Assembly (NCBI GenBank): GCA_016463765.1
Contig: JAEMQS010000004.1
Span: 1-64,000 of the forward strand
Direction of reading: 5' to 3'
Source: Solirubrobacteraceae bacterium
GTDB lineage: Bacteria; Actinomycetota; Thermoleophilia; Solirubrobacterales; Solirubrobacteraceae
DNA length: 64,000 nt
The translations under genes were made by a program, and so were the position numbers. Below are positions 31,538-55,392 of the stretch, one piece after another. The notes beneath the pieces are model-generated. The model did no database searches, had not been told where the DNA came from, and saw only the letters and a program-made list of their open reading frames with translations. The first letter of the stretch is position 1, and each line of letters begins with the position of its first letter.

Positions 31538-31960
31538 TCAGCCGTTGGTCTGCGCCTGCAGCAGTGCCAGCCAGCGCCCCATCAACAGCGTCGCCTGATC
31601 GCGGCGCACGGTGTGGTCGCGCAGGGTGCGCAGCTCGTCGATCTGGACGAGCGGGTTGCTGTCGTCCGTCACGCCGCCCATGAACCAGTCCCCGTAGATC
31701 CGGTCGTTGACCGTGCCGATGGTGATCAGCTGCGGGTCGTGGTGGCGGGTGTCGTCGGCGATGCGCACGTACGTCCGCAGCACTGCGAGCTCCGGGCCTT
31801 CCAGGACCTGAGCGAAGTGGCCGCCCCGGGCGCTCAGCGCCCCCGTGATGCCCAGGGGCTCGTTGTGGCGCCGCGCGCTCTCGAGGATCGCGGCGATGTC
31901 GTCGTCCGTGAGGCCCTGTTGGGCCTCACTGGCATAGAGCAGCCGCAGGAGGATGGTCAC
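31538..31960 (-). CDS. BLUF-domain blue-light sensor
   Basis: 140 residues, a stand-alone BLUF domain that binds FAD and changes hydrogen bonding in light. Key residues are present: Y9, N33, Q51 in GHFAQVLEG, and W92/M94 in YGDWFMGG. There is no attached output domain, so it must signal through a partner. GTG start with GAGG upstream, 19 nt after the DAHP synthase stop and on the same strand, so probably cotranscribed with it. Confidence 0.92.
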   Translation of the reverse strand: MTILLRLLYASEAQQGLTDDDIAAILESARRHNEPLGITGALSARGGHFAQVLEGPELAVLRTYVRIADDTRHHDPQLITIGTVNDRIYGDWFMGGVTDDSNPLVQIDELRTLRDHTVRRDQATLLMGRWLALLQAQTNG

Positions 31961-31979
31961 GCGGCCATCCTCGCAGGCG

Positions 31980-33404
<1,425 letters not shown>

Positions 33405-33602
33405 TCACCAGTGCTTCAGCGCGCCGCCGGCGACGAGCGCGGCGAGGAGGCCGATGACGAGCAGTGTCAGGGCGATCATCGACAGCGTCTCGGCGTCGAC
33501 GCGGCGGTGCAGGCCGAGGACGGTCGCGAGCGCGATGCCTCCGACCGCGGTACCGGTGATCGTGACGGCCGCAAGGACCTCCGGAGACGCGAACGCGAGC
33601 AT
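33405..33602 (-). CDS. Small two-helix membrane protein
   Basis: 65 residues with helices at about 8-28 and 41-60 joined by HRRVDAE. No family recognised. ATG 33602 is supported by TACATT (33621 to 33616), 13 nt upstream. It is followed by DAHP synthase on the same strand but separated by that gene's own promoter. Confidence 0.6.
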   Translation of the reverse strand: MLAFASPEVLAAVTITGTAVGGIALATVLGLHRRVDAETLSMIALTLLVIGLLAALVAGGALKHW

Positions 33603-33615
33603 TCTGGTGGCGCGC

Positions 33616-33621
33616 AATGTA
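33616..33621 (-). promoter_or_regulatory. -10 box for the small membrane gene at 33602
   Basis: TACATT on the minus strand, 13 nt before the ATG, predicting a leader of about 6 nt. Confidence 0.45.
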
Positions 33622-33680
33622 CAAGAAGCACTGAGCGCATGTCGGCTCAAGCAGGACGCTGCACGGGCGATCGCTCGGCC

Positions 33681-34583
33681 ATGAGGCTCCTGCTCGCTCT
33701 GGTCGCCGTGCTCGCGCTGGCGCCGCCGGCCGCGGCCCCGGCCGCGCCGTTCCAGGCGAAGGTCCGCATCGCGAACGCCGACGGCGAGAAGATCGCCTGG
33801 TACGACCGCGGCAGCGGCCCGCCGCTGGTCCTCGCGATCGGCACCGGCTCGACGATGGCCGAGTGGGACCCGGCGCTGCTCGCCCTCCTGGCCCGTGAAC
33901 GCCGCGTGATCGTCTTCGACTACCCCGGCGTGGGCCGGTCGTCCAAGCTCAGGGGTTCGGTGACGTTTGCCGGCCTGGCCGACACCACCGACGCGTTCAT
34001 CCGCGCGATCGGGCTGGAGGAGGCCGACGTCCTCGGTTGGTCGATGGGCGGATTCGTCGCGCAGCAGCTGGCGATCCGCCATCCCGAGCGCGTGCGCCGC
34101 CTCGTGCTGGCAGGGACGAACCCGGGTGGGGATCAGGCGGTGCTCGGGGACGACGACGATCAGGAGACCGACAGCGACCCGGATCCGTCAGAGGAGGCGG
34201 TGCTCCGCGTCCTGTACCCGCGCACGAAGGCCGGCCGCGCGGAGGGGCGCGCGTTCCTGCGCCGGCTCGAGGACGCGAGCGAGTCCGGTGAGATCCCCGA
34301 CGACTTCGAGGTGCCCGCGAGCACCGTGCGCAAGCAGGTGGCCGCCGAGGACCCGTGGCTGCGTTCCAACGCCAACGCCGACGCCCTGAAGCGGCTGCGT
34401 GTCCCGACGCTGGTCACGGGCGGCAACCTCGACCCGGTCGTGCCACCGATCAACGCACGGCGGCTGGACGCGCTCATCCCAGGGGCGCAGCTGCGCCTCT
34501 TCGCCGACTCCCACGCCTTCCTCTTCAGCGAGCGGGCGCGGTTCGCGCCGGCGGTGCTGGACTTCCTCGACGCGCCGCGCTGA
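33681..34583 (+). CDS. Exported alpha/beta hydrolase
   Basis: 300 residues: signal peptide (about 1-22, ending PAAAPA), then an alpha/beta hydrolase core with nucleophile Ser in LGWSMGGF (about 120-127), Asp in GGNLDPVVPP and His in ADSHAFLF. An acidic insertion (DDDDQETDSDPDPSEE) lies in the lid region. Substrate unknown. The 3' end overlaps the converging SDR gene by 59 nt. Confidence 0.9.
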   Translation: MRLLLALVAVLALAPPAAAPAAPFQAKVRIANADGEKIAWYDRGSGPPLVLAIGTGSTMAEWDPALLALLARERRVIVFDYPGVGRSSKLRGSVTFAGLADTTDAFIRAIGLEEADVLGWSMGGFVAQQLAIRHPERVRRLVLAGTNPGGDQAVLGDDDDQETDSDPDPSEEAVLRVLYPRTKAGRAEGRAFLRRLEDASESGEIPDDFEVPASTVRKQVAAEDPWLRSNANADALKRLRVPTLVTGGNLDPVVPPINARRLDALIPGAQLRLFADSHAFLFSERARFAPAVLDFLDAPR

Positions 34584-39221: not shown

Positions 39222-39295
39222 GGTGGGCGTAGCTCAGTTGGTAGAGCTCCTGGTTGTGGTCCAGGCGGTCGCGGGTTCAAGTCCCGTCGCTCACC
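39222..39295 (+). tRNA. tRNA-His (GUG anticodon), integration site
   Basis: Cloverleaf with acceptor GTGGGCG/CGCTCAC (one G-T pair), the extra G at -1 facing discriminator C, anticodon stem CCTGG/CCAGG and loop TTGTGGT with anticodon GTG. T-loop TTCAAGT. CCA not encoded. Its 3' half from the anticodon loop on is the attachment site of the element. Confidence 0.97.
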
Positions 39296-39299
39296 CCTC
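39254..39299 (+). repeat. attL: left copy of the 46-bp attachment repeat
   Basis: Identical over 46 bp to 53540-53585. It begins TTGTGGTCCAGG in the anticodon loop and ends CACCCCTC, so the tRNA is rebuilt after integration. Sequences beyond both ends differ. Confidence 0.95.
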
Positions 39300-39337: not shown

Positions 39338-40609
39338 CTACCGCTGGGCCGCAGCCACGAGACCTTCCGCAGAGCCACTGGTGCCCGCTGGTGCCCATTC
39401 CTCGCCGTTGACGAGGGCCTTCAGGCGCTCGCGCTCGCCGTCCCGGCGGCTCATCTGGCGGGCGTAGATCCGCAGTGTGAGCGTGGGGTCGGTGTGCCCG
39501 AGCTGGCCGATCACGTACGCCGGGTCTTCGCCCAGGGCGACGAGGATCGAGGCGAACGTGCGCCTGAGGCTGTGAGGCGTCAGGCGTTCGGGCAGCGGTT
39601 CGGAGTTGCGCTTGGCCAGCCGCTCGTTGGCGTTCTTGACGGCGGGCTGGAGGATGCGGCGCCGGACGTTCGTCTCGGACTGCCGGCCTCCGGTGCCCGT
39701 GGCGAACACGAGCGCGCCACGCGGGACGTCGCCGAGGGTGGCCCGGTAGGCGGCCAGCTCGTCGCGCAGCGCGGGCAGCACGTTGACCACGCGAACCCCG
39801 GCGTCGGTCTTCGACTCGCGAACCGTGATCGTCCCGCGCGCCAGGTCGACGTCGCCCCACGTGAGGTCCAGCATCTCGCCGATGCGCAGGCCCGCATAGG
39901 CGAGCGTGGCCAGCAGCGCCCGGCGCTGACCCTTGCGCTCCCGGGCCGCCTTGTCGAGCGCCTGGGCGCCGTCGAGCAAGGCCCCGATGTGGTCGGCGCG
40001 GTCCAGCCAGGAACGGGTCGGCTTGTCGGCCGGGAGCCTGCGGCGCTTCCCCTTGGCGGGGTTGCGCTGAAGGTGGCCGTACTCGACCGCGGCTTCCAAG
40101 ACGCCCGAGAGCACGTCCAGCGTCTTGTTGATGGTCGTGTTCGACAGCCGACGAACCTCGCGCGCTTCGTCGCCCTCACCGAGCGTCTTCGTCTCGGCGG
40201 CCTTGCGGCGTGCGTATCGGTCGACCTCCTCGACGGTGATCTGGTCGACCCTCATGGCGGCGAAGTGCGCCAGCAGGTGCTCGGTCAGCGCCCACTCCAG
40301 GTACTCGATCGTCCTCGGCCGCAGCCCGGCAACCTTGCGACCCTCGAGCCACTCGGACGCGAAGACGTGGAACGTCGGGATCTCGACGGGCTCGGGTGGG
40401 GTTGAGGCGTCGGGCGGTGCCCACTGCCCGCGGCGCACGTCGGCCAGCACGTTGGCCAGCTCGATCTCGGCCAGGCGCTTGGTGCACCCGTCCGAGGAGT
40501 AGCCGACGTGCTGGAACCGGCGCTTACCGTGGGCGCGGAACCTGATCCCGTAGGAGGTGCCCCGCGAGGTGCGCTTCTCGACGACCGTGCCCGTGGCAGG
40601 TCTAGCCAT
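39338..40609 (-). CDS. int: Tyrosine integrase of element A
   Basis: 423 residues. An N-terminal AP2/SAM-like region (TSRGTSYGIRFRAHGKRRFQ) and core-binding domain precede the catalytic domain with Arg in YAGLRIGEMLDL, HSLRR in LTPHSLRRTFAS, His in LGHTDPT and the nucleophile Tyr in LRIYARQM. The gene ends 38 nt from attL, the normal arrangement for site-specific integration into a tRNA gene. ATG 40609 chosen at MARPATG; upstream in-frame sequence is Pro-rich and unlikely. Confidence 0.96.
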   Translation of the reverse strand: MARPATGTVVEKRTSRGTSYGIRFRAHGKRRFQHVGYSSDGCTKRLAEIELANVLADVRRGQWAPPDASTPPEPVEIPTFHVFASEWLEGRKVAGLRPRTIEYLEWALTEHLLAHFAAMRVDQITVEEVDRYARRKAAETKTLGEGDEAREVRRLSNTTINKTLDVLSGVLEAAVEYGHLQRNPAKGKRRRLPADKPTRSWLDRADHIGALLDGAQALDKAARERKGQRRALLATLAYAGLRIGEMLDLTWGDVDLARGTITVRESKTDAGVRVVNVLPALRDELAAYRATLGDVPRGALVFATGTGGRQSETNVRRRILQPAVKNANERLAKRNSEPLPERLTPHSLRRTFASILVALGEDPAYVIGQLGHTDPTLTLRIYARQMSRRDGERERLKALVNGEEWAPAGTSGSAEGLVAAAQR

Positions 40610-40770
40610 GATGCTCCCTTCGATCGCGGCGATCGGGCAGGGCCACGGCACGGGGAGCACGCACGGCGGGAGCCGGTAGCGTGCCGCGCGCGCCGGGGGC
40701 GTCTACCCCGTCGCCGGGCCCGGGGCGTTGGCGCGCCGCCGGGCCACTTTGTGCACTTGCACGCCGCACC

Positions 40771-41124
40771 CTACGCCGCCAGGCCCTTGATCGGCAACAG
40801 CGGTATGCCTTCGCGTGTCGTTGCCACGCGAGGGCGCCGGGCGACGACCCTCGGGGCGTGGGGAGGTGCCGCGCCGCGTCGCCGCATCGCCTCTTCGGCG
40901 CGGCTCAGGTCGAACCGCCAGGGAGCTTTCGGCGTGTCCGCGAGCTTGACGCCGCCGAGCTCGGCGGCGTGCTCGTAGACGAAGGCCGTCGACACGCTGA
41001 GGTGGCTGGCCAGTGCCTTGACGTCGACCAGGCCGCCGGCCCTTGACGGCTGGTGCTCTCGTTGAAGCGCGACAACGCGCCGAGCGATGGCCTCGATGTC
41101 GTCGGGGTGCAGGCGCGCGGTCAT
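40771..41124 (-). CDS. HTH protein, excisionase-like
   Basis: 117 residues. VDVKALASHLSVSTAFVYEHAAEL is the helix-turn-helix (seen as ALASHLSVSTAFVYEHAAEL), followed by a PWRFDLSRAEEAM wing, matching AlpA/excisionase-type DNA-binding proteins. Start at ATG 41124 overlaps the previous stop (ATGA). Position just before int fits a recombination directionality factor; transcriptional control is the alternative. Confidence 0.75.
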   Translation of the reverse strand: MTARLHPDDIEAIARRVVALQREHQPSRAGGLVDVKALASHLSVSTAFVYEHAAELGGVKLADTPKAPWRFDLSRAEEAMRRRGAAPPHAPRVVARRPRVATTREGIPLLPIKGLAA

Positions 41125-41978
41125 CGTCCGACCTCGCGTGCACCCGGTGCACAGGTCGCCGGCCATCCCCCGGGGAGGTAGAGCGGGGTGCCAGGACGCC
41201 CGTTCTCGCTCGGCCTCTCGCCGACCCGCTCCATGATGCCTGCGGTCACGAACCCACGGAGCAGCCGGTTGGCCTGGCTCTTGCTGACGCCGCACCAAGC
41301 GCCGAACTCACGAGCCGAGCACGCCAGCGGGCTGCCAGCGCGGACGCCAGCCCAACCCAAGCCGAACCAGAGAAAGAGCCCCTCGTACGCAAGCTGGACG
41401 GTCGATCGCGGGTCGGTGGGCGGTCCGACGAACGGGATGTCGACGGGGTCGAACAGTCCCGCCTCCCACAACAGCCGCTTCAGCCAGAGCGCCAGCAACG
41501 CATTCGACGCGCCACCGCGAGAGGCCGGTCGCGACTCATGCTTCCCGACAGCGATCGATCGGGCCGCCTCGCCGAGCGAGCACCAGTCCTCGTCGCCGTG
41601 GCAGCACACGTACCGCGGCTCGGCGCGTTCGTCGTCAACCACCGTCGCGATGCACGCTGGACCGTCGTGCCCGGGAAGTCGGCACGGGAAGTTGTTGCCG
41701 TACCCGTCGACCCCGAAGAACCTCTGGAGGGCACGCACCGCCACGTGGTCGATCTCGAGCCGGTTCCCGCAGTACTTGACCCGATGGTGGCCAGGAACTC
41801 GGTATCGGCCACCGAGGATGAGATGAGGTCCTGGGACAAGAGGAGCGACAAGCGGAGCCAAGTCATCGAGGGGTAGTGGCGACGAAGAACGGCGGAACGA
41901 CTCGTCGACGAGACGCAGTTCCGCTCCTCTAGTCGCTCCACTTGTCCCAACCCCGTGATTGGCGGGCTGGGCGCTCAT
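41121..41978 (-). CDS. Zinc-finger replication-like protein with C-terminal winged helix
   Basis: 285 residues. The middle part, CRLPGHDG then YVCCHGDEDWCSLGE (about 100-140), has the Cys/His pattern of a CHC2 primase-type zinc finger. The C-terminal 100 residues read as a winged helix (SAREFGAWCGVSKSQANRLL). There is no visible primase polymerase domain, so it may be a replication initiator or primase accessory. ATGA overlaps link it to both neighbours. Confidence 0.6.
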   Translation of the reverse strand: MSAQPANHGVGTSGATRGAELRLVDESFRRSSSPLPLDDLAPLVAPLVPGPHLILGGRYRVPGHHRVKYCGNRLEIDHVAVRALQRFFGVDGYGNNFPCRLPGHDGPACIATVVDDERAEPRYVCCHGDEDWCSLGEAARSIAVGKHESRPASRGGASNALLALWLKRLLWEAGLFDPVDIPFVGPPTDPRSTVQLAYEGLFLWFGLGWAGVRAGSPLACSAREFGAWCGVSKSQANRLLRGFVTAGIMERVGERPSENGRPGTPLYLPGGWPATCAPGAREVGR

Positions 41979-42340
41979 GAGAAATCACCCCATGGGTCGT
42001 ACGCCGTCTGTCGTCGGCCGACGTCACGTTGCGGCGCGGGCAGCGACAGAGCCTCAGTCGCCCGCGGTGTCGAGGGCGACACCCCGCTCGGTGCCGTGCT
42101 TTGCGCAGCGGGTTCGGCGACCAGAACGTAGACGGCCATCTGCGACCGCCTGGCCGACGAGTCGATCACGTAGCCGGATTGCCGCACCTCGTCGATGCGA
42201 GCCGGCAGGCGCAGAATCGGCCTCCCACCGTCGAACGTGTCCGGGCCAAGAAAGTCGGCCTGGGTGATTCCGGTGCGGCCCCGGATGCGGAGGGCGCGCA
42301 GGACGCGGTCTCGCTGCGAGGGACGTCGGTGCGCGGTCAT
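41975..42340 (-). CDS. Phage-type winged helix DNA-binding protein
   Basis: 121 residues from ATG 42340. RDRVLRALRIRGRTGITQADFLG and DGGRPILRLPARIDEVRQSGYVID follow the pattern of a small winged helix common in prophages (seen as GITQADFLGPDTFDGGRPI). It is coupled to both neighbours by ATGA overlaps. Probably a transcriptional regulator of the element. Confidence 0.7.
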   Translation of the reverse strand: MTAHRRPSQRDRVLRALRIRGRTGITQADFLGPDTFDGGRPILRLPARIDEVRQSGYVIDSSARRSQMAVYVLVAEPAAQSTAPSGVSPSTPRATEALSLPAPQRDVGRRQTAYDPWGDFS

Positions 42341-42966
42341 CGGCCGGCCCCCGCGCGCTCGCGGTCGATCACGGTGCCGCAAGGGAGCGTGACGAGGCGG
42401 TAGACGCGGTGCCCCTCACGTGCACCGAAATCGTCGATCACCCAGCCCTCGTGCCGAAGGGTCTGGACCATCTCGGCGACCGGCGGATCTCCTGGGCGCC
42501 AGCCGAACGGCGTGGTCATGCCCTGGGCGTCTCCGAGCGGAAACGCCGCGTGTCGGATCAGCCCGAGGCGAACGAACGGCAGCAGGTGGCGCCGTCGCTC
42601 GTCTGGGTGGGCTGGTGAGTCATCGTCGGAACTGGGGCCGGCGCGCGTGGCGCCGGTTCCCCGACGCGATGCGGGGCGTCCGCCTCTCGGGCCTCGACGC
42701 GGCCGGCCGCCGCCGTGCTGCTTGCGCGGACGGTAGCCACAGAGCTTGGTGACCGTGCGCATCTCGGCGACCCGCCAGGCGACAGTCAACGGCTGCTTCG
42801 GGGAGCGCCGGCCGGAGGCGTCTCGCACGGTGAATCGTCCGGTCGGCGTGACGTCGACCGTGGCTGCGGTGGTCGTTCCGAGGGAGCGGCGCGCGAGTTC
42901 CTGCGGCGTCGGCTCGTCGGGGTGCGGCTCGTAGAGCGACCGATCGCTCTGGGAAGGCTGCTTCAT
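42337..42966 (-). CDS. Element protein of unknown function, first gene of the coupled chain
   Basis: 209 residues: acidic, Pro-rich N-terminus (YEPHPDEPTPQELARRS), a basic low-complexity middle with RKQHGGGRPRRGPRGGRP, and a C-terminal segment PPVAEMVQTLRHEGWVIDDFG resembling the end of the downstream winged helix. Start ATG 42966 has GGAGG. The basic core suggests nucleic-acid binding. It opens a four-gene chain joined by ATGA overlaps. Confidence 0.6.
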   Translation of the reverse strand: MKQPSQSDRSLYEPHPDEPTPQELARRSLGTTTAATVDVTPTGRFTVRDASGRRSPKQPLTVAWRVAEMRTVTKLCGYRPRKQHGGGRPRRGPRGGRPASRRGTGATRAGPSSDDDSPAHPDERRRHLLPFVRLGLIRHAAFPLGDAQGMTTPFGWRPGDPPVAEMVQTLRHEGWVIDDFGAREGHRVYRLVTLPCGTVIDRERAGAGR

Positions 42967-43607: not shown

Positions 43608-43931
43608 CTAAGCGGGAGAGGGCGCGCAGCGGCGGCCGAGCTGCCAGCCTGCGAGAAGGCACTGCAAGAGCAGCGGTGTGACCTCGTCAAGGAACTCGAT
43701 GCGAGCGTCTCCCAGGCGGCCGAGGTCCAGGAAGCTCTCGGCGCGGAGGTTGTCCGCGAGCGTTGCGACCGCGATGGCCAGGAAGTCGCCGTCGACCCCG
43801 ATGCGCGAAGCGGCCCGATGTACCCCGTCGAGCGGGATGCTGCCGGCACCGGAGTCCGACCACTCCTCCAGCAGCGCGGTGGCTTCGTCGAAGGCCCTCC
43901 ACACGTCGTCCATCCGCAGTTCTGCTGCCAT
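43608..43931 (-). CDS. Hypothetical protein coupled to the giant gene
   Basis: 107 residues, mostly helical and acidic, no recognised motif. Its ATG overlaps the stop of the 1541-residue gene (ATGA), so the two are made together; it may be a chaperone or partner of that protein. Confidence 0.65.
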   Translation of the reverse strand: MAAELRMDDVWRAFDEATALLEEWSDSGAGSIPLDGVHRAASRIGVDGDFLAIAVATLADNLRAESFLDLGRLGDARIEFLDEVTPLLLQCLLAGWQLGRRCAPSPA

Positions 43932-46900
43932 CAGTCGAACACCCCTCCGCCGGTCGTTGAGCTTCCCGATTGCGCACTCGTCGTGCCGAAGATCCCGTCG
44001 CCACCGCCGCCACCGAAGACGCCTCCACGCGCGCTCGCCGACCGAGGCCGCCGCCGACGTCCGCGTCGAAGCCCTGCGCGAGTCTCGATCCGGGCGATCT
44101 GTGCACGCAGGCGGTCGCCCTCGGCGGTGCCGCCCTCACCGCGGGATTGCAGCGCCCGCAATGCGACCTTGGCCGCATCGAGCTCCGGGTAGTCGGTGAC
44201 CTGCTGGACGCGAGCCATCGACTGAGAGTCGGTGAGTCGCAGCGGCGTGGTCAGCGCGTGGGCGAACCGGCCCGCGGAACCATCGGGGCGGCCGTCCTGG
44301 AAGCGATCGACGCGCGCACGCTCGGCCCGCGAGATGGGGCGCAGGGGACGGTCGCCGAGAAGCGGGAGGCTGTCGCTGCCCTGCATTTCCGGGCCGCTGA
44401 GGGCGTCGTCCGCGGCACGGAGGGCGGGGCTGAGCCGCAGCGTGTCTCGCGTGACGATGCGGGCGCCCTCGTCGAGCCCGATCTGCGGGTCGGCGCCGAA
44501 CGCGGTGAACACGCCGTTGGTGTTGAGCTTCGCACCGCGCTCCGTCTCCCCGAGCAGCGTCGTCAGCAGTGAGCCAAGGATCGGACTCAGCAGGCCGAGG
44601 CTGCCCGAGCGCGGATCGCTGAACAGGTCGAAGATCGGCGAGGTCAGCGGCGACGCCCTGCCGACGTCGAAGTACCCGAGCTGACCGTCGCGCTCGAAGT
44701 AGACGCGGCCGCCGAACTGGCTCAGCAGCTCGCGCCGGATCGCCCGCTCGACCTCGTCGCGGGTGTAGCCACTGCGGTTCTCCTTGAGGAACCGTGAGGA
44801 CAGCAGGTCGACGACCTCGTCGTTCTGCATCTGCGCGACCTGGCGGACGATGTTGGCGGCCACCGGGTGCTTGACGGGGAGCGTGTATAGCGCGAGCTTC
44901 GTCGCGAAGCGCATGAAGCCGTAGAACAGGAGGAACGAGCGCCCCAGCCGACGCTCGGTGACCGTGTAGCGCGTCCAGTTGCCGAGCATGTCGTCGACGT
45001 GCTCCGCGTATCGCGCGATCTGCGGCTCGAGCTCGCGCAGCCGTGCGCGCTTGGCGTCACCGGCCGGCATCGCCAGAGCGTCGGCCAACTCTTGGGCCTC
45101 GGCGACCGCACCGTTGAACGGCCGGTGAAGGTCGCGCTCCAGGCGGCCGAAGAACGCGTTGCGACGGAAGTAGTCGTTCTGGCGCTGGTCCAGCTTGCGG
45201 TTCCAGGTCAGCGGGTTCAGGCGGCTCTCGCGCGCCCCGTTGACGGCATCGCTGTCGACGAACGACTGGTAGAAGCCGGCGAGCTTGTTGTCCGTCGCCG
45301 CGCCGAAGTGCGGTGAACGCGTGAGGTCGCTGAGCGGCGCGCTGCCGAGGAACTCGTCGACCATCGCGAGCGTCTCGGCGTCCGCGCCTTCGGCCTCGAT
45401 CTTCTTGCGCCAGCGCCGGTAGGGAGCGGTGGCGACGCGGCCCCTGGAGCCCGGCAGGCTGAGCACCACGTTCGAGGCGACCTGGATCGGGACGAAGACC
45501 GGCGACGTGTTGAGGATCGCCGCGGACGTGATGCCCTGAGCCTTCTGTAGTCCGCGACGCAGCGCACTGCCGGGGGTCGTCGCGGCACGCAACTCGTCGC
45601 TCACCGCGCGCGGGACGACTACGAACGTGGGACCGCCCTGGACGAACACGCTCGGAGTCCCATCGAGGGTCACGGTCGCGCGCTGGAGCGCCTCATGAAT
45701 CGCCGGATCGTCGACGCCTCCCTCGCCAGCGCGTGCCGACTGAGCGTCTCGGTCGGGTGCTGCGCGGCGGATGATGTTGAGGTCAACGACGTGCCAGTCG
45801 TCCGGGTTCAGCCCCTCGCGGTTGATGTAGTCGTGGGCCTGCCGGAGCGTGAGGCCGCGCGCGTCGGCCGGGCTCGACGACTCCAGGATGTCGGTGACCG
45901 TGTTCCAGTTCACCGTGCGCTTGATCGTGCGGAGCAGGCCGCCGTCGTAGGCCCCGGGCGTGGTGTCGTAGCGGCCCTCGTCGAACAGTCGGTAGCGAGT
46001 GGCTTTCGGGCCGGCGATCGCCCGGCTTCCGCCAGGGGCGTGGTCGCTGTGCCGCTCGCGGCCTGAGGGTCGGTGCTCGACGTAGACCGGGGTCTGTAGG
46101 CCAAGGCGCGCGGCTGCGTCCTGGGTGCGCTGAAGGAACGCCTCCCCGGCCTCGGTGGCGAGCCGGTCTGCTTCGGCCTCGGTGATGTCCCCGTCTGCGG
46201 TTCGCGCCTCAATGCGAGCGATGTCCTGCTCGAAGCGGCGATGCTCTCCGAGGGTGCGCCCAACCGGCATCCAGCGGCGCATCTCGGCTCGATGGCCGCC
46301 GAGCCCCGTCTCATCGCCGTCGAGGATGCGGGCGTCGCGCGCGACCTGCTTGTCGGCGAAGTCACTGACCGCCCCGAGGGCCTGCATCAGCGTGTCGTCG
46401 TCGTGGGCGAGGATGCGGTCGAGACGTGCCAGCTCGTCGGCGTCGCGTCCCGGCGTCTGGCCCTTGCCGCGGTCACGTCGCGCGGTCGCCTTCTGGGTCT
46501 CGTGGGTCGCCTCGGCCTCGCGCAGGCGAGCCGCGGTCGCCTTGACCCTGCGCTGGGCGCTGGCCAGCGCCTCGGCGGCGTCGCTGGCGCCCTTCGCGCC
46601 CGCTGCGTACGCGCCTTCCGTGCGTGCTCGCGCGTTGCCCGCCCGCTGCGCGTCGCGTTCGGCAGCCACGCCGCCGACGTTGCGCGACAGCACTTCAGCG
46701 CGGCCCTGGGCGACATCGACCGCGGTGCGCTTCTGCTTCAGGTCGCGACGCGCGGCGTTGTGGCGCCGTCGGGCCTGAGCAACGGTCTTCGCGCTGCCCT
46801 GTACGTCGCTGCCCTCCGGCAACCGGTTGACCTCCACCTGGTCGCGGCGAAGCTGCAACACCTCGCGAGTCGTCGCGACATCGCGGGAGGTCAGCGCCTG

Positions 46901-48556
46901 GAGCGCCAGCGACTCCAGGTCGGTCGCGAGGCGGTTGCGGGCGGCCTTCTTGGTCGCCGGGATCGCCAGGACGTTCCCGCCGCCGGCCGCGCGCAGCATC
47001 TCCCGCCTTTCGGCGCGGACGCCATCGCGCCCGCGGACTTCCGCGTCCTGAAGCCCGCGAAGGCGCGTCAGGCCGCGGGATGTTCGATCGGCTGTCGCCT
47101 TGCGTTGGTCGCGGGACTGGAGACGAAGCGACGCCTTCACGACCTCGCCATCGCCTGGGGCAAGCCCGGACATCCCAACGTCGCTACCGGCCCGACGACG
47201 GGCGACACGCTCCCGGCGAGCATCGACCTGGCGTTGACCAGCGGCGACGAGCAGGTTTCCGCTCACGCGCTGATCGCGGACCTGCGTCGGCCCTGCGCCC
47301 AGGCGCAGCACGGGGCGGGGCGCGTTCATCACGCCCGCGCCCGCAGGTGTCGCCGCCTTGACCCCGGCGCCGAGCAGACGCCCGACTCCCGCGCCGAGGG
47401 TCGCGGCATCCAAGCCGACCTGAAGCCCGGCGCCCTCCTCGCGCACCTGGCGGCGGAACTCCCCGGCATCGCCGCGCATGAGTGGGGAGTACAGCCGTGA
47501 GTACGAGTCCTTCGTGTCTTCCCACGCACCCGCCGGATCGGTGACTGCGTCGATCGCTCCCGGGATGAAGCCCAGAGCCGTTGCAGCCGCGGCCTTGGCC
47601 GTTGACTCCGTCGTTGCGCCGGGAGCTTCGACGAACGCACGCCCCGTATGAACTGGGGCGGTCGCCAGGCGAGCCCACTTGCGCGCGCTGCCGCCGTGGC
47701 CGGAGAAGACCGAGTCGGCCGCCGACGCCGCGGCCCGCTCGATGGGGAGGGTGACGCCCATCGCGCGAACCTCGAGCTTCGGATCAGCCTCGGAGGCCCG
47801 CGGCCGGGAGTCCAGGAGGTTCTTCTCCTGCGCGTCGTACAGCCCGATCTTCTCGCTCCGCGAGTAGGGCCTCCCGTCCTCGCGCGAGACGAGCGAGCCT
47901 TCCACGGCCTGCGCCTTCGCCGTGTCCACCGCGCCCGCGAGCTTGTTCAGCGCGCGACGGGTGTCGCGGTCGCCGAGACGACGCAGCCCCGACTCCGTGT
48001 TCGACGGGTCGAGCTCGCGCTGAAGGGCGAGCTGCGTGCGCCCACCAGAACCACGCCGATCGCGGATGCCCTTCTGCACCGCGTCGGTCGTCATGTCGAT
48101 GATCGTCTGGCGCTGGCGCGGCGTGTACCCGTCCTTCAGCACCGGCAGCCGCGGCAGCCTGACCTTCGGCCCTGCCTTCTCCGCGGCCTTCCTGGTCTTC
48201 GCGCGCGCCCTACGCCGCGGCTTGGAGAAGTCGGCCTTCTGGAGCGGCCCGTTGCCGAGCGCCGGGGAGACGGGCGGCTTCGGTGCGGGACGCGACGGTG
48301 CGCGGCGCCGCGGCCGGCGGCGCGGTGTCGGAGGCCCGGCCTTCGGGCTACCGGGCGCTCCAGCAGGCGCGCGCTTGCCGACCCCGGCGACGGCCTGGCC
48401 GACGCTGCTCTTCGACTTGGCCTTTCGACGACGACGGGATCGCCGTCCCGAATCGGACGGTGAGTCACCGCGTGGGCCGCTTGGAAGGGTGTACGCCACG
48501 AGTCCAGATTGGACGTCCTGCCGGTCGTACCGCAGGCCCCTCTCGACACCGTGCAC
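43931..48556 (-). CDS. 1541-residue polyvalent or virion-type protein
   Basis: One third of the element. Residues 35-130 are very basic and Pro/Arg-rich. About 520-760 are long charged helices. From about 980 on come SVFVQGGPTFVVVP, TSPVFVPIQVASNVVLSLPG and RYTVTERRLGRSFLLFYGFM with hydrophobic stretches, an order that recalls the membrane-associated domain (LPD38-like) of phage polyvalent and ejected proteins. It ends in a Gly-rich tail with GVF, GIF, GVF. GTG start is uncertain; a 17-bp palindrome covers it. No capsid or terminase genes are present. Confidence 0.75.
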   Translation of the reverse strand: MHGVERGLRYDRQDVQSGLVAYTLPSGPRGDSPSDSGRRSRRRRKAKSKSSVGQAVAGVGKRAPAGAPGSPKAGPPTPRRRPRRRAPSRPAPKPPVSPALGNGPLQKADFSKPRRRARAKTRKAAEKAGPKVRLPRLPVLKDGYTPRQRQTIIDMTTDAVQKGIRDRRGSGGRTQLALQRELDPSNTESGLRRLGDRDTRRALNKLAGAVDTAKAQAVEGSLVSREDGRPYSRSEKIGLYDAQEKNLLDSRPRASEADPKLEVRAMGVTLPIERAAASAADSVFSGHGGSARKWARLATAPVHTGRAFVEAPGATTESTAKAAAATALGFIPGAIDAVTDPAGAWEDTKDSYSRLYSPLMRGDAGEFRRQVREEGAGLQVGLDAATLGAGVGRLLGAGVKAATPAGAGVMNAPRPVLRLGAGPTQVRDQRVSGNLLVAAGQRQVDARRERVARRRAGSDVGMSGLAPGDGEVVKASLRLQSRDQRKATADRTSRGLTRLRGLQDAEVRGRDGVRAERREMLRAAGGGNVLAIPATKKAARNRLATDLESLALQALTSRDVATTREVLQLRRDQVEVNRLPEGSDVQGSAKTVAQARRRHNAARRDLKQKRTAVDVAQGRAEVLSRNVGGVAAERDAQRAGNARARTEGAYAAGAKGASDAAEALASAQRRVKATAARLREAEATHETQKATARRDRGKGQTPGRDADELARLDRILAHDDDTLMQALGAVSDFADKQVARDARILDGDETGLGGHRAEMRRWMPVGRTLGEHRRFEQDIARIEARTADGDITEAEADRLATEAGEAFLQRTQDAAARLGLQTPVYVEHRPSGRERHSDHAPGGSRAIAGPKATRYRLFDEGRYDTTPGAYDGGLLRTIKRTVNWNTVTDILESSSPADARGLTLRQAHDYINREGLNPDDWHVVDLNIIRRAAPDRDAQSARAGEGGVDDPAIHEALQRATVTLDGTPSVFVQGGPTFVVVPRAVSDELRAATTPGSALRRGLQKAQGITSAAILNTSPVFVPIQVASNVVLSLPGSRGRVATAPYRRWRKKIEAEGADAETLAMVDEFLGSAPLSDLTRSPHFGAATDNKLAGFYQSFVDSDAVNGARESRLNPLTWNRKLDQRQNDYFRRNAFFGRLERDLHRPFNGAVAEAQELADALAMPAGDAKRARLRELEPQIARYAEHVDDMLGNWTRYTVTERRLGRSFLLFYGFMRFATKLALYTLPVKHPVAANIVRQVAQMQNDEVVDLLSSRFLKENRSGYTRDEVERAIRRELLSQFGGRVYFERDGQLGYFDVGRASPLTSPIFDLFSDPRSGSLGLLSPILGSLLTTLLGETERGAKLNTNGVFTAFGADPQIGLDEGARIVTRDTLRLSPALRAADDALSGPEMQGSDSLPLLGDRPLRPISRAERARVDRFQDGRPDGSAGRFAHALTTPLRLTDSQSMARVQQVTDYPELDAAKVALRALQSRGEGGTAEGDRLRAQIARIETRAGLRRGRRRRPRSASARGGVFGGGGGDGIFGTTSAQSGSSTTGGGVFD

Positions 48557-48589: not shown

Positions 48590-49036
48590 TCAGTCGTCGC
48601 GAAGGCCGACGACGAGCGCGTGCAACTCCATCTCGGTCATGTCCCCGTCGTCGTGCTCGCGCGCCACGTGATCCATCGCCCGCTGCACCGTTGGGAACGT
48701 CTCCCCGCACCCCAAGCACCCAGTCGGCGACGGCAACTGCGCAACGCGCTCGCGCTCTGCCCGGTCAGCTTGCGCAGCACCGTCGGAGTCGCCCCGCGCG
48801 CGTAGGAGATCGGCGTGACTGCCTCGCCGAGCCAGGACGCTCATGGCCACCTGCCAGCCGCTCCACGCGACAACGAGGACGACCGCCCATCCGCCGAGAA
48901 CCATCGCTGGGCCACCGTTGGCCTCCAGGGCCGTCCCGTCGAACACCAGCAGAATCCCAGCAATCACGAGGGCAACGACCGCAAGGCCGCCGAACCCGAG
49001 GCACACACGCGCCACCTGCGTAGCCAACCAGACCAT
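48590..49036 (-). CDS. Membrane protein with C-terminal C2H2-type zinc finger
   Basis: 148 residues: two membrane helices (about 10-30 and 45-65), a charged linker, and CLGCGETFPTVQRAMDHVAREH, a Cys2-His2 finger. A membrane-tethered finger could bind DNA or the giant protein made next. ATG 49036 is set by TACGGT 6 nt upstream. Confidence 0.7.
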   Translation of the reverse strand: MVWLATQVARVCLGFGGLAVVALVIAGILLVFDGTALEANGGPAMVLGGWAVVLVVAWSGWQVAMSVLARRGSHADLLRARGDSDGAAQADRAERERVAQLPSPTGCLGCGETFPTVQRAMDHVAREHDDGDMTEMELHALVVGLRDD

Positions 49037-49042
49037 TGCGCG

Positions 49043-49048
49043 ACCGTA
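49043..49048 (-). promoter_or_regulatory. -10 box, leaderless zinc-finger gene
   Basis: TACGGT on the minus strand ends 6 nt before ATG 49036. It should drive the zinc-finger, giant and 107-residue genes. The divergent promoter at 49489 has the same hexamer. Confidence 0.55.
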
Positions 49049-49237
49049 CCTGACCGATAACGAGCGCGCGATGCGGCGGGCCACATACGGGACTCCGGCG
49101 GCCGTTCATGAAACCAGAAGGCGGTGCATTGTGGGGTGGTCGCGAACGGCCACGGAGGGGACAGAGACTCCAGGGACCGACCTCCAGCTTCGCCGCCCCC
49201 CAGGGGGGGTCTGTGCCTCTGCCTCGTGCCTGTTTCA

Positions 49238-50185: not shown

Positions 50186-50464
50186 TCAGGACGTCGCGTG
50201 CCGGCGACGCACCGCCGGCCAGTCTGCGGCCGCAAGCGCCGTGGCGAAGACGAGCGGTCCCGACCACTGTCCGCCCCTCGGCGCCACGATGCCCCGCGCG
50301 TTCAGGTCGGCGGCCACCGCCCGAGTCGACGCGCCGGCCAGGAGCGACGTTGCGATGCCGACTGCCGTAGGCGACCGCTCGAGCCGCGGACCGGGCCGCT
50401 CGCTCTCCCGGACGCCGAGTGCATCCCAGACCGCGCACATTCGGTTGGCGGCCTGGTCGCTCAC
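50186..50464 (-). CDS. Small protein with serine-recombinase-like DNA-binding segment
   Basis: 92 residues. STRAVAADLNARGIVAPRGG followed by QWSGPLV matches the recombinase-domain pattern (Ala-x-x-Leu-Asn-x-x-Gly-Ile then Gly and Trp) of large serine recombinases; the catalytic domain is absent. GTG start overlaps the previous stop (GTGA). Either a fragment of a recombinase or a small DNA-binding protein. Confidence 0.5.
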   Translation of the reverse strand: MSDQAANRMCAVWDALGVRESERPGPRLERSPTAVGIATSLLAGASTRAVAADLNARGIVAPRGGQWSGPLVFATALAAADWPAVRRRHATS

Positions 50465-50685
50465 GATGCCAGGGCCGTGACGCGTCGATCGCCGGACAGC
50501 AGGCCGACCTTGACCCCACGGATGAACGACGCGAACAGCTCCTCACGCCGGAGGTCCGCCGGGCTGTAGCCGCCACGGTCGAAGTAGTCGCCCTCCAGCA
50601 TGTCCAGCCACGAATCGCAGACGTCGGCCAGCTCGTCGGGCGGGATCTCCGCAAGCTCGTGGATCGCGTCAACGAGGGATTGCAC
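50461..50685 (-). CDS. Hypothetical acidic protein coupled to the recombinase-like gene
   Basis: 74 residues, GTG start, acidic and helical (IPPDELADVCDSWLDMLEGD), then RGGYSPADLRREELFASFIRGV. No family known. Stop overlaps the next start as GTGA. Confidence 0.5.
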   Translation of the reverse strand: MQSLVDAIHELAEIPPDELADVCDSWLDMLEGDYFDRGGYSPADLRREELFASFIRGVKVGLLSGDRRVTALAS

Positions 50686-51321: not shown

Positions 51322-51657
51322 TCAGATTCGGTGCAGCGAAGATGCGTCGATCATCTGCGCGGCATTGAGCGCGGTCAGAAGATCCACGTACCTCTTTCGT
51401 GCCCCACTCAGTTGCGCCGGCATCTCGTTCCCGAGGTGAACGGTTACCGTCAGCCAGTCCGGCGCGTCGGTCCACGTAGTGCTGTCGGCGACCTTCTTGT
51501 CTGCGAGCTGCCATGTCGCGGTTTGGCCGCCAAGGTTGATGTTGAGGGCGACCAGCGCACGAGCGTCGTAGTCGTCTTCCGGCGGGTCGCCGCCGTACAC
51601 GACGAGGACATCGTGTCGCCCCAACTGTCGGATTCCGTGCTCTTCGATGTAGGCCAT
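51322..51657 (-). CDS. Hypothetical element protein
   Basis: 111 residues from ATG 51657: MAYIEEHGIRQLGRHDVLVV, then acidic DPPEDDYDARAL, DAPDWLTVTVHLGNEMP and a helical end. Alternating beta and helix pattern, no family known. Lower GC than neighbours. It precedes the divergent cargo unit. Confidence 0.55.
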   Translation of the reverse strand: MAYIEEHGIRQLGRHDVLVVYGGDPPEDDYDARALVALNINLGGQTATWQLADKKVADSTTWTDAPDWLTVTVHLGNEMPAQLSGARKRYVDLLTALNAAQMIDASSLHRI

Positions 51658-51800
51658 CGATACGGAACGTTCGATTGCACCGTCGTTTCTCCTCCAGGGC
51701 CCGACGGCGTGCGAGGCTCTGGGCTCGACTACGCGATGCTTGCGAACGTGCCACACAGGATCTGCGCACCCCGTCGCACCGCCGCCTCTGGTAGCGCACG

Positions 51801-51812: not shown

Positions 51813-52385
51813 GTGGATACTCCGAGACATGGCGATGTGGTGCAGCTCGTGACGGACACGCCCTCGGAGGATGTGCACGACGCGGCGGAGCATTCGCGAG
51901 CCGTGGCCGAGGCGATGCGGCATCTGGCGGATCAGCAGTACGACCGCGCGGAGCGGCTGCGGGCTGCTGCCAGGCAGACCTTCTTGTGGGTGTCGGCCCT
52001 TTTCACCGTGACGCAAGTCGTCGCGCTCTCTGCATTCGGAGAGGACAAGATCACCCCAGGCGAGCAGCAGTCGCTCATGTGGATCGCCATTGTCGGTGCC
52101 AGCTTCCTCCTGGTGACGTTGCTCCTGACGATCGGCACGGACCGCCTGCGAAAGGTCGCCGACATTGCGCCCGATGATCTCGTGAGGGCGGCCGACGACG
52201 CAGTCGAGTCCGGGGACCACTTCGGCGACGCGCTCGTCGCCATGTACCACCTGACGGCCACTCGGCGAGCAGAGGCGGTCAAGGAGCGACGCGAGTGGCT
52301 CTATTCGGTTACGGTCTTCGCAGCGATCACGGTCACCGTATTGGTCGGCGAGATCGTCTACGCGCTCATCATTCGCCTCCACTAG
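51813..52385 (+). CDS. Three-helix membrane protein of the cargo unit
   Basis: 190 residues: amphipathic cytosolic N-terminus with AEAMRHLADQQYDRAERLRA, helices at about 57-76 and 88-107, a cytosolic stretch, and a third helix at about 164-187. The layout resembles 2TM/3TM effector domains such as SLATT, but no signature is certain. GTG start is leaderless. It is 13 nt before the next gene and the two run opposite to most element genes, next to attR, where accessory genes usually sit. Confidence 0.65.
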   Translation: MDTPRHGDVVQLVTDTPSEDVHDAAEHSRAVAEAMRHLADQQYDRAERLRAAARQTFLWVSALFTVTQVVALSAFGEDKITPGEQQSLMWIAIVGASFLLVTLLLTIGTDRLRKVADIAPDDLVRAADDAVESGDHFGDALVAMYHLTATRRAEAVKERREWLYSVTVFAAITVTVLVGEIVYALIIRLH

Positions 52386-52398
52386 GGGTCTCACTGCC

Positions 52399-53400
52399 TT
52401 GACAGACCAAGACGCTGCGGCGCCGGCAAGTGCCGACGACGCTGACGCTGACGAAGTTGCCACGGATGCGGTTGAGCCACCTCCGCGCAGAGGGACGGCG
52501 AAGCGTCGCAAGCTCGGCGGGGTAATCGAGAAGTACCGCAACGTCACCGGTACGACCGACATGATGGTGACCCATGATCAGCGGTACGCGGAGCGACTGC
52601 TGCTCCAAGGCGAGGGGCTGACCGACCGAGGCGGACCTGCCGATGTGGTGCTGGACCTGGTGCGCGACTGGGTCAGGGCGATCAAGGCCGTAAACCCGGG
52701 CGCCAACCCGGTCCTGGAGCGGCTGGTCCCGACCAGCTCGATGGAGATCGTCCTCCATCCGCCCGATGAGGAGATCGTCGATGCCGGGCGCCGGCAGGCG
52801 TACTTCGAGGACACCGATTCCCTCGACGTCGCCTTGCCCGAAACGACCCTTGCGATCGCCGCGATCACGACCGTTCTGACCGCGGAGCCGGAAGCTGGCG
52901 CTGAGGCCGCGAGGACGATCGGTGTCACCGCGGCCGATGCTATTCGCGACCTCGCAGCGGACCTGGCTGACAGGGAGATCGAGGCGACCATTGGGCTCGG
53001 CAGTGATAGCGCGACCAAGATCGAGCCCGAGCATCTGTTGCGGGTGGTGGAGCAGCTCGACGCCACGTCCGAGCTCCCACCGGTGACCGTGACGGTGGTG
53101 GGAGTCCTCAACGGCGCGAACTCGCGTGGCGACGGCCAGTTCGAGATCGAGACCGACGCTCAGGTGCAGCTCGACCCGGCGTTCGGGCGCCGCAAGAAGG
53201 CCGGCGATGTTGTGCAGGGGGCATTGACGCCAAAGGCGCGCCGCGAGATCCGCAAGGACAACCTTTGGGACCGCCACGTCGAGGCTCGCGTGCAACTGGT
53301 TCGGCGACAGCGAGGCCCCAAAAGCACTCGTATCGAGAGCGTGCGCCTGATGTCGGTATCCCCGCGGCCGGGCTACTCCTCGGAAGAGCTCGAGGATTAG
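52399..53400 (+). CDS. Soluble partner protein of the cargo unit
   Basis: 333 residues from a TTG start. Acidic N-terminus, a basic patch RRGTAKRRK (about 30-38), a helical middle, and a C-terminal beta-rich domain (VTVTVVGVLNGAN ... LWDRHVEARVQLV). I do not recognise it. Terminated by a hairpin before attR. With the membrane protein it looks like a self-contained two-gene system, possibly defence or toxin-immunity. Confidence 0.65.
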   Translation: MTDQDAAAPASADDADADEVATDAVEPPPRRGTAKRRKLGGVIEKYRNVTGTTDMMVTHDQRYAERLLLQGEGLTDRGGPADVVLDLVRDWVRAIKAVNPGANPVLERLVPTSSMEIVLHPPDEEIVDAGRRQAYFEDTDSLDVALPETTLAIAAITTVLTAEPEAGAEAARTIGVTAADAIRDLAADLADREIEATIGLGSDSATKIEPEHLLRVVEQLDATSELPPVTVTVVGVLNGANSRGDGQFEIETDAQVQLDPAFGRRKKAGDVVQGALTPKARREIRKDNLWDRHVEARVQLVRRQRGPKSTRIESVRLMSVSPRPGYSSEELED

Positions 53401-53539: not shown

Positions 53540-53585
53540 TTGTGGTCCAGGCGGTCGCGGGTTCAAGTCCCGTCGCTCACCCCTC
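53540..53585 (+). repeat. attR of element A / left att site of element B
   Basis: Second identical copy of the 46-bp repeat. It is only the tRNA 3' half and lacks the 5' half, so no functional tRNA is here. An integrase gene begins its neighbour region on the right side. Confidence 0.95.
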
Positions 53586-53688: not shown

Positions 53689-54912
53689 TCAGGCGGCATC
53701 GGCGTCTGCGGGGCGCAGCGGATGAGCCTTCCTCGCGGCGCGGATCTCCTTTGCGGCGTCGATTTTCGGCTTGCCCTCGTACATGTCAATCAGGTGTCCG
53801 TAGGTGCGAAGCGTCTGCTCGGCGCCGTGCCCGAGCTGCGATGCGACGTAGTGGATCGTGTGGCCTTCGGCGAGCAGCAGCGACGCGAACGTGTGCCGCA
53901 GGTCGTACGGCCGCGAGTGTGGGAGCTTGGCGATCTTGAGCCCCGGGAGCCAATGGCGATTGCGCCAGTTGTCCCAGTCGGACTTCCTCCAGGGGTTGCC
54001 GTCTGCCGGAGGGAAGATCCAGCGCTCGGTCGACTTCGGGCAGGTCTTCTGCCACGACTTGAGGTCAGCCGCGAGCGGCGTGAGGAATCGCACCACGCGG
54101 CTTGGGCCGGTCTTGGTGCTCTTGATCGCCCCGCCGGTCAGGTCGCATGCGCGGGAGACGAGCAGCGTCTTGTCATGCACGTCGTCCCAGCGCAGGGCCA
54201 GCGCTTCGGCAGGGCGAAGGCCGGAGTAGGCGAGCACGGAGACCAGAGCCAGGTCTCGCTCGCGGACGGCCTGCGGGAGTCGCTCGATGGTGTAGGACTT
54301 CCGCGCACGCTGCCCAGGCTTGGACCCGGCGACGATGGTCGGTGTGGCGGAGGCGATCGCGACGCGAAGCCGCTCCACCTCGTACGGCGACCATGCCCGA
54401 ACGGGTTCGGAGTGTGCGCGGCGCTTGGGACGCACTGCGCGAGCGGCGTTGTACTCCAGCTCGCCGAGTTCGCAGGCGTAGGCGAGGATCCCGCCGAGCA
54501 GGGAGTGGGCCTCGCGCAGCGCCTTGGTGCCCGCGCCGGCGCGCTCGCGCTCGGTGCGCCACTGGGCGACGAGCGGGGCCGTGATCTCCCGCAGCGGGAC
54601 GTCATTGAACGTGTCCTCCAGGTGGGCGCTCCAGAGGTTCGCGTACGTCCGGCGGGTGGCGCTCGCCAGGTCAGCCGTCCGTTCGGGCGACCAGGTCTCG
54701 GCGACGAATGTGCCGAGCGTGCGCGAGCTGTTCAGGGTGTGCAGCGTTCCGAGCTGCTTGCGGCGCTTGACTTCGGCTTCCCACTGCTCGGCGTCGCCCT
54801 TGCGGTCGAAGCTGCGCGTCCGCTGGCGGCCGTGTACGCGCCAGTGGACTTCCCACTTGACGCTCGGCTTGCCGGTGCGCTTGCTGATTCGTTGAATGCG
54901 GTGGATCGACAT
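53689..54912 (-). CDS. int: Tyrosine integrase of element B
   Basis: 407 residues. Basic AP2-like N-terminus (WEVHWRVHGRQRTRSFDRKGDAEQW), core-binding domain, and catalytic Arg in YSGLRPAEAL, LRHTFAS, LGHGAEQTLRTYGH with the nucleophile Tyr. Shine-Dalgarno GGAGGACG before ATG. It differs clearly from the integrase of A yet targets, by position, the same site. Confidence 0.96.
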   Translation of the reverse strand: MSIHRIQRISKRTGKPSVKWEVHWRVHGRQRTRSFDRKGDAEQWEAEVKRRKQLGTLHTLNSSRTLGTFVAETWSPERTADLASATRRTYANLWSAHLEDTFNDVPLREITAPLVAQWRTERERAGAGTKALREAHSLLGGILAYACELGELEYNAARAVRPKRRAHSEPVRAWSPYEVERLRVAIASATPTIVAGSKPGQRARKSYTIERLPQAVRERDLALVSVLAYSGLRPAEALALRWDDVHDKTLLVSRACDLTGGAIKSTKTGPSRVVRFLTPLAADLKSWQKTCPKSTERWIFPPADGNPWRKSDWDNWRNRHWLPGLKIAKLPHSRPYDLRHTFASLLLAEGHTIHYVASQLGHGAEQTLRTYGHLIDMYEGKPKIDAAKEIRAARKAHPLRPADADAA

Positions 54913-54999: not shown

Positions 55000-55392
55000 C
55001 TAGGACGGCCGGCCGCCCGTGAGGATGGCCTGTGTCGCGCGGCTCGTTCTGGCCTTGGCTCGCCGGGCTCGACGGGTCGCCTGCGCGGGCGTGAGCGTTG
55101 CCAGCGGGCAGCCTCGGTCGCGCCACGCGTCGACGGCTGCCGGGGTGGTTTGCCAGCGGTTGCCGATCCGCTCACCTGTGAGCAGTCCGGCGTTCATGGC
55201 GCGCGCGACGCTCTTGGGGTGCATGCGGACGCGCTCGGCCACATCCTTCGTCGTGAGGTACTCGGGCGCGGCGCCCGGAAGGTACGGCGCGAGCGCGCGA
55301 GCGAACTCGGCGCCGAGCTTGGGGTCGCGCTGCAGCGCGTGGGCGAACTCGCTCAGCAACGCGGCTCCGAACGTACTGTCGCTGGTTGCCAT
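55000..55392 (-). CDS. Helix-turn-helix protein, excisionase-like
   Basis: 130 residues with YLTTKDVAERVRMHPKSVARAMNAG and NRWQTTPAAVDAWRDRG (MerR/excisionase-type fold, seen as TTKDVAERVRMHPKSVARAM). C-terminus is basic. It lies next to the integrase, as a directionality factor would. Confidence 0.8.
   Translation of the reverse strand: MATSDSTFGAALLSEFAHALQRDPKLGAEFARALAPYLPGAAPEYLTTKDVAERVRMHPKSVARAMNAGLLTGERIGNRWQTTPAAVDAWRDRGCPLATLTPAQATRRARRAKARTSRATQAILTGGRPS

Follow-up and report, generated by a model that had tools for sequence, protein, structure and literature searches.

A giant protein of short-tailed-phage type in a tRNA-integrated element without detected head genes, probably a phage satellite

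The window, a 64,000-nucleotide stretch of a Solirubrobacteraceae genome (GenBank assembly GCA_016463765.1, contig JAEMQS010000004.1), holds an integrated element, element A, measuring 14,286 bp start-to-start between two 46-bp perfect direct repeats, attL (39254-39299, plus strand) and attR (53540-53585, plus strand). attL begins inside the tRNA-His gene (39223-39297, plus strand; GTG anticodon, ARAGORN) and covers its 3′ end; this integration target is still complete. The integrase reported in a preliminary description of the locus is confirmed as a 440-residue tyrosine integrase (39338-40660, minus strand; Pfam PF00589, 5e-20; PHROG, 5e-58), which shares 51% identity with the integrase encoded at a primase-bearing locus of genome G100. 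The adjoining 117-residue HTH protein (40771-41124, minus strand), for which a longer frame starts at 41298, matches PHROG_66 weakly (0.003), suggesting the excisionase- or regulator-like function proposed for it. A 285-residue replication-type protein (41121-41978, minus strand) combines a Cys/His zinc-finger-like and a winged-helix-like region, both recognized by eye. It corresponds to the primase-like zinc finger gene described earlier; the gene is present, no Pfam or PHROG family matches its product, and a relative with 37% identity lies in an 8.6-kb element of genome G001, from the same genus as the window genome. It is followed by a 135-residue winged-helix protein (41975-42382, minus strand; HTH_39, 0.001; PHROG_21071, 2e-6) with homologs in a phage contig (G814, 54% over 79 residues) and in the G446 prophage (36% over 70 residues).

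The giant gene occupies 32% of element A, the third that had been claimed, and lies between two smaller genes on the same strand. A 107-residue acidic protein (43608-43931, minus strand; ORF with coding score) starts beside its stop codon, and a 164-residue protein with a putative membrane segment and a C2H2-like zinc finger (48590-49084, minus strand; no confident Pfam or PHROG family match) is encoded directly upstream. Toward attR lie a 74-residue small acidic ORF (50461-50685, minus strand; ORF with coding score) and a 144-residue ORF call (51322-51756, minus strand). A 92-residue frame at 50186-50464 gives a match (6e-4) to the Recombinase domain of serine recombinases and is probably a resolvase remnant. 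At the attR end, two adjacent genes on the plus strand encode a 190-residue membrane protein (51813-52385) and a 333-residue protein (52399-53400), likely forming a two-gene cargo operon. Satellites often carry defence cargo at the attR end; the pair at 51813-53400 yielded no PADLOC or Pfam match of note, and PADLOC identified no defence system in the scanned cargo proteins.

Directly after attR, the segment 53689-56820 encodes another tyrosine integrase (53689-54912) and carries, besides an excisionase-like gene (55000-55392), two small ORFs and a gene for an SSB with 36% identity to a prophage SSB. This segment probably represents a further element inserted at the tRNA-His that element A uses. 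No third att copy occurs in the 52 kb of contig that remain, so the integrase at 53689 is left without a bounded element.

The giant gene (43931-48556, minus strand) starts with GTG and encodes 1541 residues without internal stops. Because long spurious ORFs are common in DNA of 70% GC, we compared element A with 200 dinucleotide shuffles. Its longest stop-free run spans 1552 codons, whereas the shuffles gave a median of 428 and never exceeded 707, and GC by codon position follows the pattern of coding genes. These results bear out the 1541-residue gene. Elsewhere in the window, an 876-residue frame (31953-34583, plus strand), whose first part is apparently spurious and whose end overlaps a hydrolase-like gene, exemplifies the long chance ORFs found at this GC content.

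The N-terminus of the giant protein is basic, as described earlier, and Pro-rich, with 27% K+R and 15% P in the first 150 residues. The C-terminal hydrophobic region noted before is present as weak segments (Kyte-Doolittle 1.3-1.5). As to the long helices noted before, an AlphaFold2 model of residues 795-1400 is mostly helical at low confidence (pLDDT 46), too poor for a fold search. Family alignments define this same region, residues 795-1400 (44357-46174, minus strand), as the conserved C-terminal region, with the motif NWTRYTVTERR..FYGFMRF..LYTLPVKHP; a second conserved segment comprises about residues 303-422 (47290-47650, minus strand).

The giant protein has no sequence match in Pfam, PHROG, NCBIfam or PDB, and single-sequence searches of IMG/VR, GTDB genomes, a phage collection and PDB were negative. 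Among 100 related genomes searched, one clear homolog emerged, a 1412-residue protein in G005 (27% identity over 608 residues). Profiles built from the window and G005 pair, and their successors, extended the family to G240, G371, G383, G446 and IMG/VR contigs. Within the order, 6 of the 232 genomes searched carry a member; among 396 genomes sampled across the phylum, none besides the window does, and further IMG/VR scans added phage fragments only. Members range from 1304 to 2456 residues. Plasmid matches at E = 4-8 were noise, Fic and methyltransferase matches in PDB at E about 1 were discarded, and borderline matches in L003 and L004 were not recovered with better profiles.

The preliminary description likened the giant to polyvalent proteins, and this part was not supported. 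Scans of the window giant and six relatives against Pfam returned no LPD family, with sub-threshold noise only; with no LPD or enzymatic domain detected, the polyvalent identity was dropped. A confident match to a non-phage family was also looked for and did not occur. Two large relatives show additional features. In the 2456-residue giant of L032 (4955-12325), visual inspection suggests a resemblance of one stretch to an ADP-ribosyltransferase, as in T4 Alt-like injected enzymes, which Pfam did not confirm. The 2147-residue giant of the G383 prophage (L018, 7404-13847) has sub-threshold matches to NlpC/P60 and to glucosaminidase close to its C-terminus and is perhaps fused to a cell-wall hydrolase, judging from these matches.

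The other suggestion, a phage-ejection-type protein, is supported by homology and gene position. Over 732 residues, the window giant shares 40% identity with a protein from a 45.9-kb viral contig, on which terminase, portal, capsid, adaptor and nozzle proteins are encoded as well. The family is present in eight short-tailed-phage genomes, prophages or fragments (G371, G383, G446, L030, L031, L032, L066 and L068). Six of these combine the giant with terminase, portal, major capsid, adaptor and nozzle genes, namely G371, G383, G446 and the IMG/VR contigs L030, L031 and L032 (41-46 kb), while contigs L066 and L068 hold capsid, nozzle and giant. Family scans in giant-bearing phages identified terminase (2e-15), portal (3e-14), capsid (6e-39) and nozzle (3e-12), and the nozzles of G383 and G005 are also supported by such scans. 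In seven of the eight, the late genes run from nozzle through one or more small proteins and a 400-560-residue protein to the giant; in G383, whose late block includes nozzle and giant, the middle protein was not resolved. A lysozyme-like gene follows the giant in the phage genomes examined that reach that far.

T7-type ejection genes follow the same small, middle, large order, with gp14 and gp15 preceding the larger gp16 (PMC8954989). Because the late-block position of the giant matches this order, the phage homologs are most simply read as ejection proteins in the position of T7 gp16, a presumed function that we derive from gene position and neighbours. The T7 gp14/gp15/gp16 and P22 gp7/gp20/gp16 blocks share with these phages the late position after the nozzle, the small-middle-large gene order and a very divergent large last protein; the giant is mostly helical in its low-confidence model. 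The giant family differs from the T7 and P22 ejection proteins in being larger (1304-2456 residues), in belonging to actinobacterial hosts and in also being carried by elements without head genes, and neither PHROGs, Pfam nor PDB gave a sequence match to characterized ejection proteins. If this assignment is true, T7/P22-style ejection gene blocks extend to phages of Thermoleophilia.

Scans of element A with Pfam, PHROG and tblastn using related-phage proteins revealed no terminase, portal, capsid or nozzle match, in agreement with the earlier claim that terminase, portal and capsid genes are lacking. When all proteins called in the related phages were compared with the element by tblastn, only the giant gene, the HTH gene and the integrase matched. 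By its gene content, element A is neither an intact prophage, with head, portal and terminase genes between its att sites, nor a capsid-forming PICI, with its own capsid, portal and terminase. What it has in common with satellites is its discrete nature, an integrase with att sites, a size below that of the 41-46-kb related phages and an incomplete set of particle genes. It is about one third as long as those phages, and one third of helper size is the usual satellite ratio (PMC10803314).

No packaging gene and no pac or cos site was identified in element A. Its proteins, several of them from small ORFs without assigned function, gave no family match to TerS, Rpp, Cpm or Sid type genes, and neither AlpA nor a capsid-size gene was identified. 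DNA similarity to the phage contigs lies mainly in the giant gene, and a shared packaging site is not evident. In the window genome, whose assembly is 89% complete, searches for TerL and nozzle gave no match, and a helper prophage of this type was not detected. A terminase search that scored 1.5e-120 in the G371 control detected none of this type in the window, G240 or G005 genomes.

The search for the giant gene in other small integrated elements, suggested in the preliminary description, identified two more cases. Three giant-bearing elements are therefore integrated at tRNA genes between perfect att repeats and contain no terminase, portal or capsid gene: element A (14.3 kb, tRNA-His, 46-bp repeat), the G240 element (19.7 kb, tRNA-Arg, 48-bp repeat) and the G005 element (28.5 kb, tRNA-Gly, 51-bp repeat). 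In tblastn searches with all proteins called in the related phages, the giant was found in all three; setting aside integrases, one HTH gene and one helicase-like gene, the only further matches were in the G240 and G005 elements. The G240 element additionally retains the 491-residue phage neighbour of the giant; giant and neighbour are 35% and 37% identical to the corresponding pair of the G446 prophage. The G005 element carries, besides the giant, a nozzle and a small tail-protein match; a second gene, adjoining the nozzle, matches a minor tail protein. Its giant shares 59% identity with the L066 giant, its nozzle 22% with the L066 nozzle and about 31% with those of G371, G383 and G446, and the two genes stand in reversed order compared with the phages, giant before nozzle. 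Since giant and nozzle track different phages, the G005 element looks assembled from more than one source, the two genes apparently having come from different phages. Little is shared among the three elements besides the giant, so they do not constitute a single satellite family.

Phylogenetic analysis with L066 and L068 included, which agreed with the tree made before their addition, pairs each element giant with a phage giant: window with L030 (100/99), G240 with G446 (100/100) and G005 with L066 (100/99). A single clade of the three element giants is rejected (AU p = 3.9e-5). The element giants keep 83-86% of near-invariant columns, against 77-89% in the sister phages, and branch lengths of element and sister phage are similar (1.01/0.71 for the window, 0.65/0.76 for G240 and 0.53/0.37 for G005).

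We regard element A as probably a phage satellite. The proposal of a satellite that supplies its own ejected protein is the best fit to the att sites, integrase, replication-type gene, lack of head genes and three cases. The main rival explanation, which we consider unlikely, is a decayed short-tailed prophage in which head, portal, terminase and lysis genes have been lost and the giant, integrase and att sites kept by chance. The giant gene clearly derives from short-tailed phages; the G383 prophage likewise uses a tyrosine integrase at a tRNA gene (tRNA-Leu, 22-bp repeat, copies 43.2 kb apart), and the resolvase-like fragment and orphan ORFs of element A hint at some decay. Sampling was by the giant gene, hence every element found carries it; three separate wrecks would also show separate phage affinities, the phages themselves are mosaic, and the G005 element, which has two or more tail genes, may be a prophage that has undergone heavy deletion. 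Against decay, both att repeats are perfect, and the giants are full length, keep their conserved columns and have branch lengths similar to those of their sister phages, which favours the satellite reading. The phage neighbours of the giant are gone on both sides in element A without tblastn-detectable remnants, the lysozyme and middle protein leaving no trace, and flanks that differ from the phage flanks in this way point in the same direction, as do the failure of the three giants to form one clade and the same outcome in three elements with giants from different phages. The discordant identities of giant and nozzle in G005, together with their reversed order, also favour a satellite, and the integrase and replication-type protein of element A are similar to ones found in other non-phage or satellite-like elements.

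Two further readings assign the giant a different role. In one, which we find improbable, element A would be a satellite or defence island and its giant a weapon, a mismatched ejection protein that, built into the particles of invading short-tailed phages, makes them non-infectious and so protects the host. P22 virions with Sf6 gp16 alone contain the protein and form no plaques (PMC10883804), and element A has the giant without its usual partner. However, the giant with partner in G240 and the giant with nozzle in G005 suit working particles better than poisoning, and PADLOC matched none of the other cargo proteins. The second reading, highly improbable in our view, is an integrative conjugative or mobilizable element in which the giant serves as a DNA-transfer protein of polyvalent type. 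AICEs integrate at tRNA genes in actinobacteria, as element A does at tRNA-His. Polyvalent proteins, moreover, are most common in conjugative elements (PMC5512222). Yet Pfam scans of the element proteins gave no match to FtsK/TraB or relaxase, which would mark an AICE, or to type IV secretion; the giant has no LPD domain, and outside the three elements its relatives are all in phages.

For the satellite, we lean toward a full mechanism in which the element supplies its own ejection protein to the particles of a short-tailed helper of T7/P22-like architecture. We infer helper mobilization, as we do ejection of the phage homologs, excision, packaging, incorporation into particles and an effect on entry. 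With an active helper, element A would excise from tRNA-His by means of its own integrase and HTH protein and replicate with its own replication-type protein, and the helper terminase would package it into heads built by the helper. The giant, made late, would replace or join the helper ejection protein in the particle, its conserved regions mediating this, and would be expelled ahead of or with the DNA when the next cell is infected, forming or gating an envelope-spanning conduit. The likely gain would be control of entry, through altered envelope compatibility or altered sensitivity to resident-phage exclusion; mismatched ejection proteins may also spoil helper particles.

Experiments in P22 provide analogies for both effects. 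Ejection-protein sets from other phages are incorporated into P22 virions and work there, and with the HK620 set SieA exclusion is largely evaded (PMC10883804), which suggests a possible gain at entry. Sf6 gp16 alone is packaged in P22 in particles that do not function, whereas Sf6 gp16 and gp20 together do (PMC10883804); the lone protein suggests a way to harm the helper, and the dependence of gp16 on gp20 would fit the retention of giant and partner as a pair in G240. A P22-like helper also has precedent, as EcCIMP1 is a satellite of Kapi1, a phage likened to P22 (PMC11773190). More tentatively, and at slightly less than even likelihood, the three elements may exemplify a recurrent kind of satellite that captures ejection genes, and sometimes nozzle genes, to provide its own envelope crossing, escaping exclusion or widening host range.

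Comparison with known systems places element A beside several satellite types. EcCIMP1 is likewise small and integrated, carries integrase and excision/replication genes and is moved by a P22-like phage (PMC11773190); unlike for element A, we found no description of a satellite-encoded ejection protein in PICIs of its type. Capsid-forming PICIs and the Streptomyces satellites MulchRoom and MiniFlayer (PMC10690885) resemble element A in encoding part of the virion, but they make their own heads, portal and terminase and borrow tails, whereas element A encodes the giant only. PICMIs, like element A, have no identifiable packaging or capsid-remodelling genes and use full-size helper heads (PMC10803314); they are thought to leave particle composition unchanged, whereas element A would alter it. 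Polyvalent proteins resemble the giant family in size and in their proposed injection with phage or plasmid DNA (PMC5512222), but the window giant has no detected LPD or enzymatic domain.

PICIs redirect packaging or resize heads, and the satellites described in the papers surveyed steal particles, resize heads, redirect packaging or make heads. Our searches of the open-access literature returned no satellite described with its own ejection or injection proteins for DNA entry. If the reading is true, satellites and helpers come into conflict at the entry step, and the copies of the giant in satellites are natural swaps that could reveal the role of the largest ejection protein.

The G001 element that carries the relative of the replication-type gene (L061, 8249-16912) is itself of interest. 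It spans 8.6 kb between 45-bp repeats, with a third repeat copy at tRNA-Gly about 13 kb further on, and encodes an integrase, an HK97-type capsid protein (PHROG, 7e-46) and a weak match to a terminase small subunit. By these genes, it looks like a minimal capsid-encoding satellite in the same genus as the window genome.
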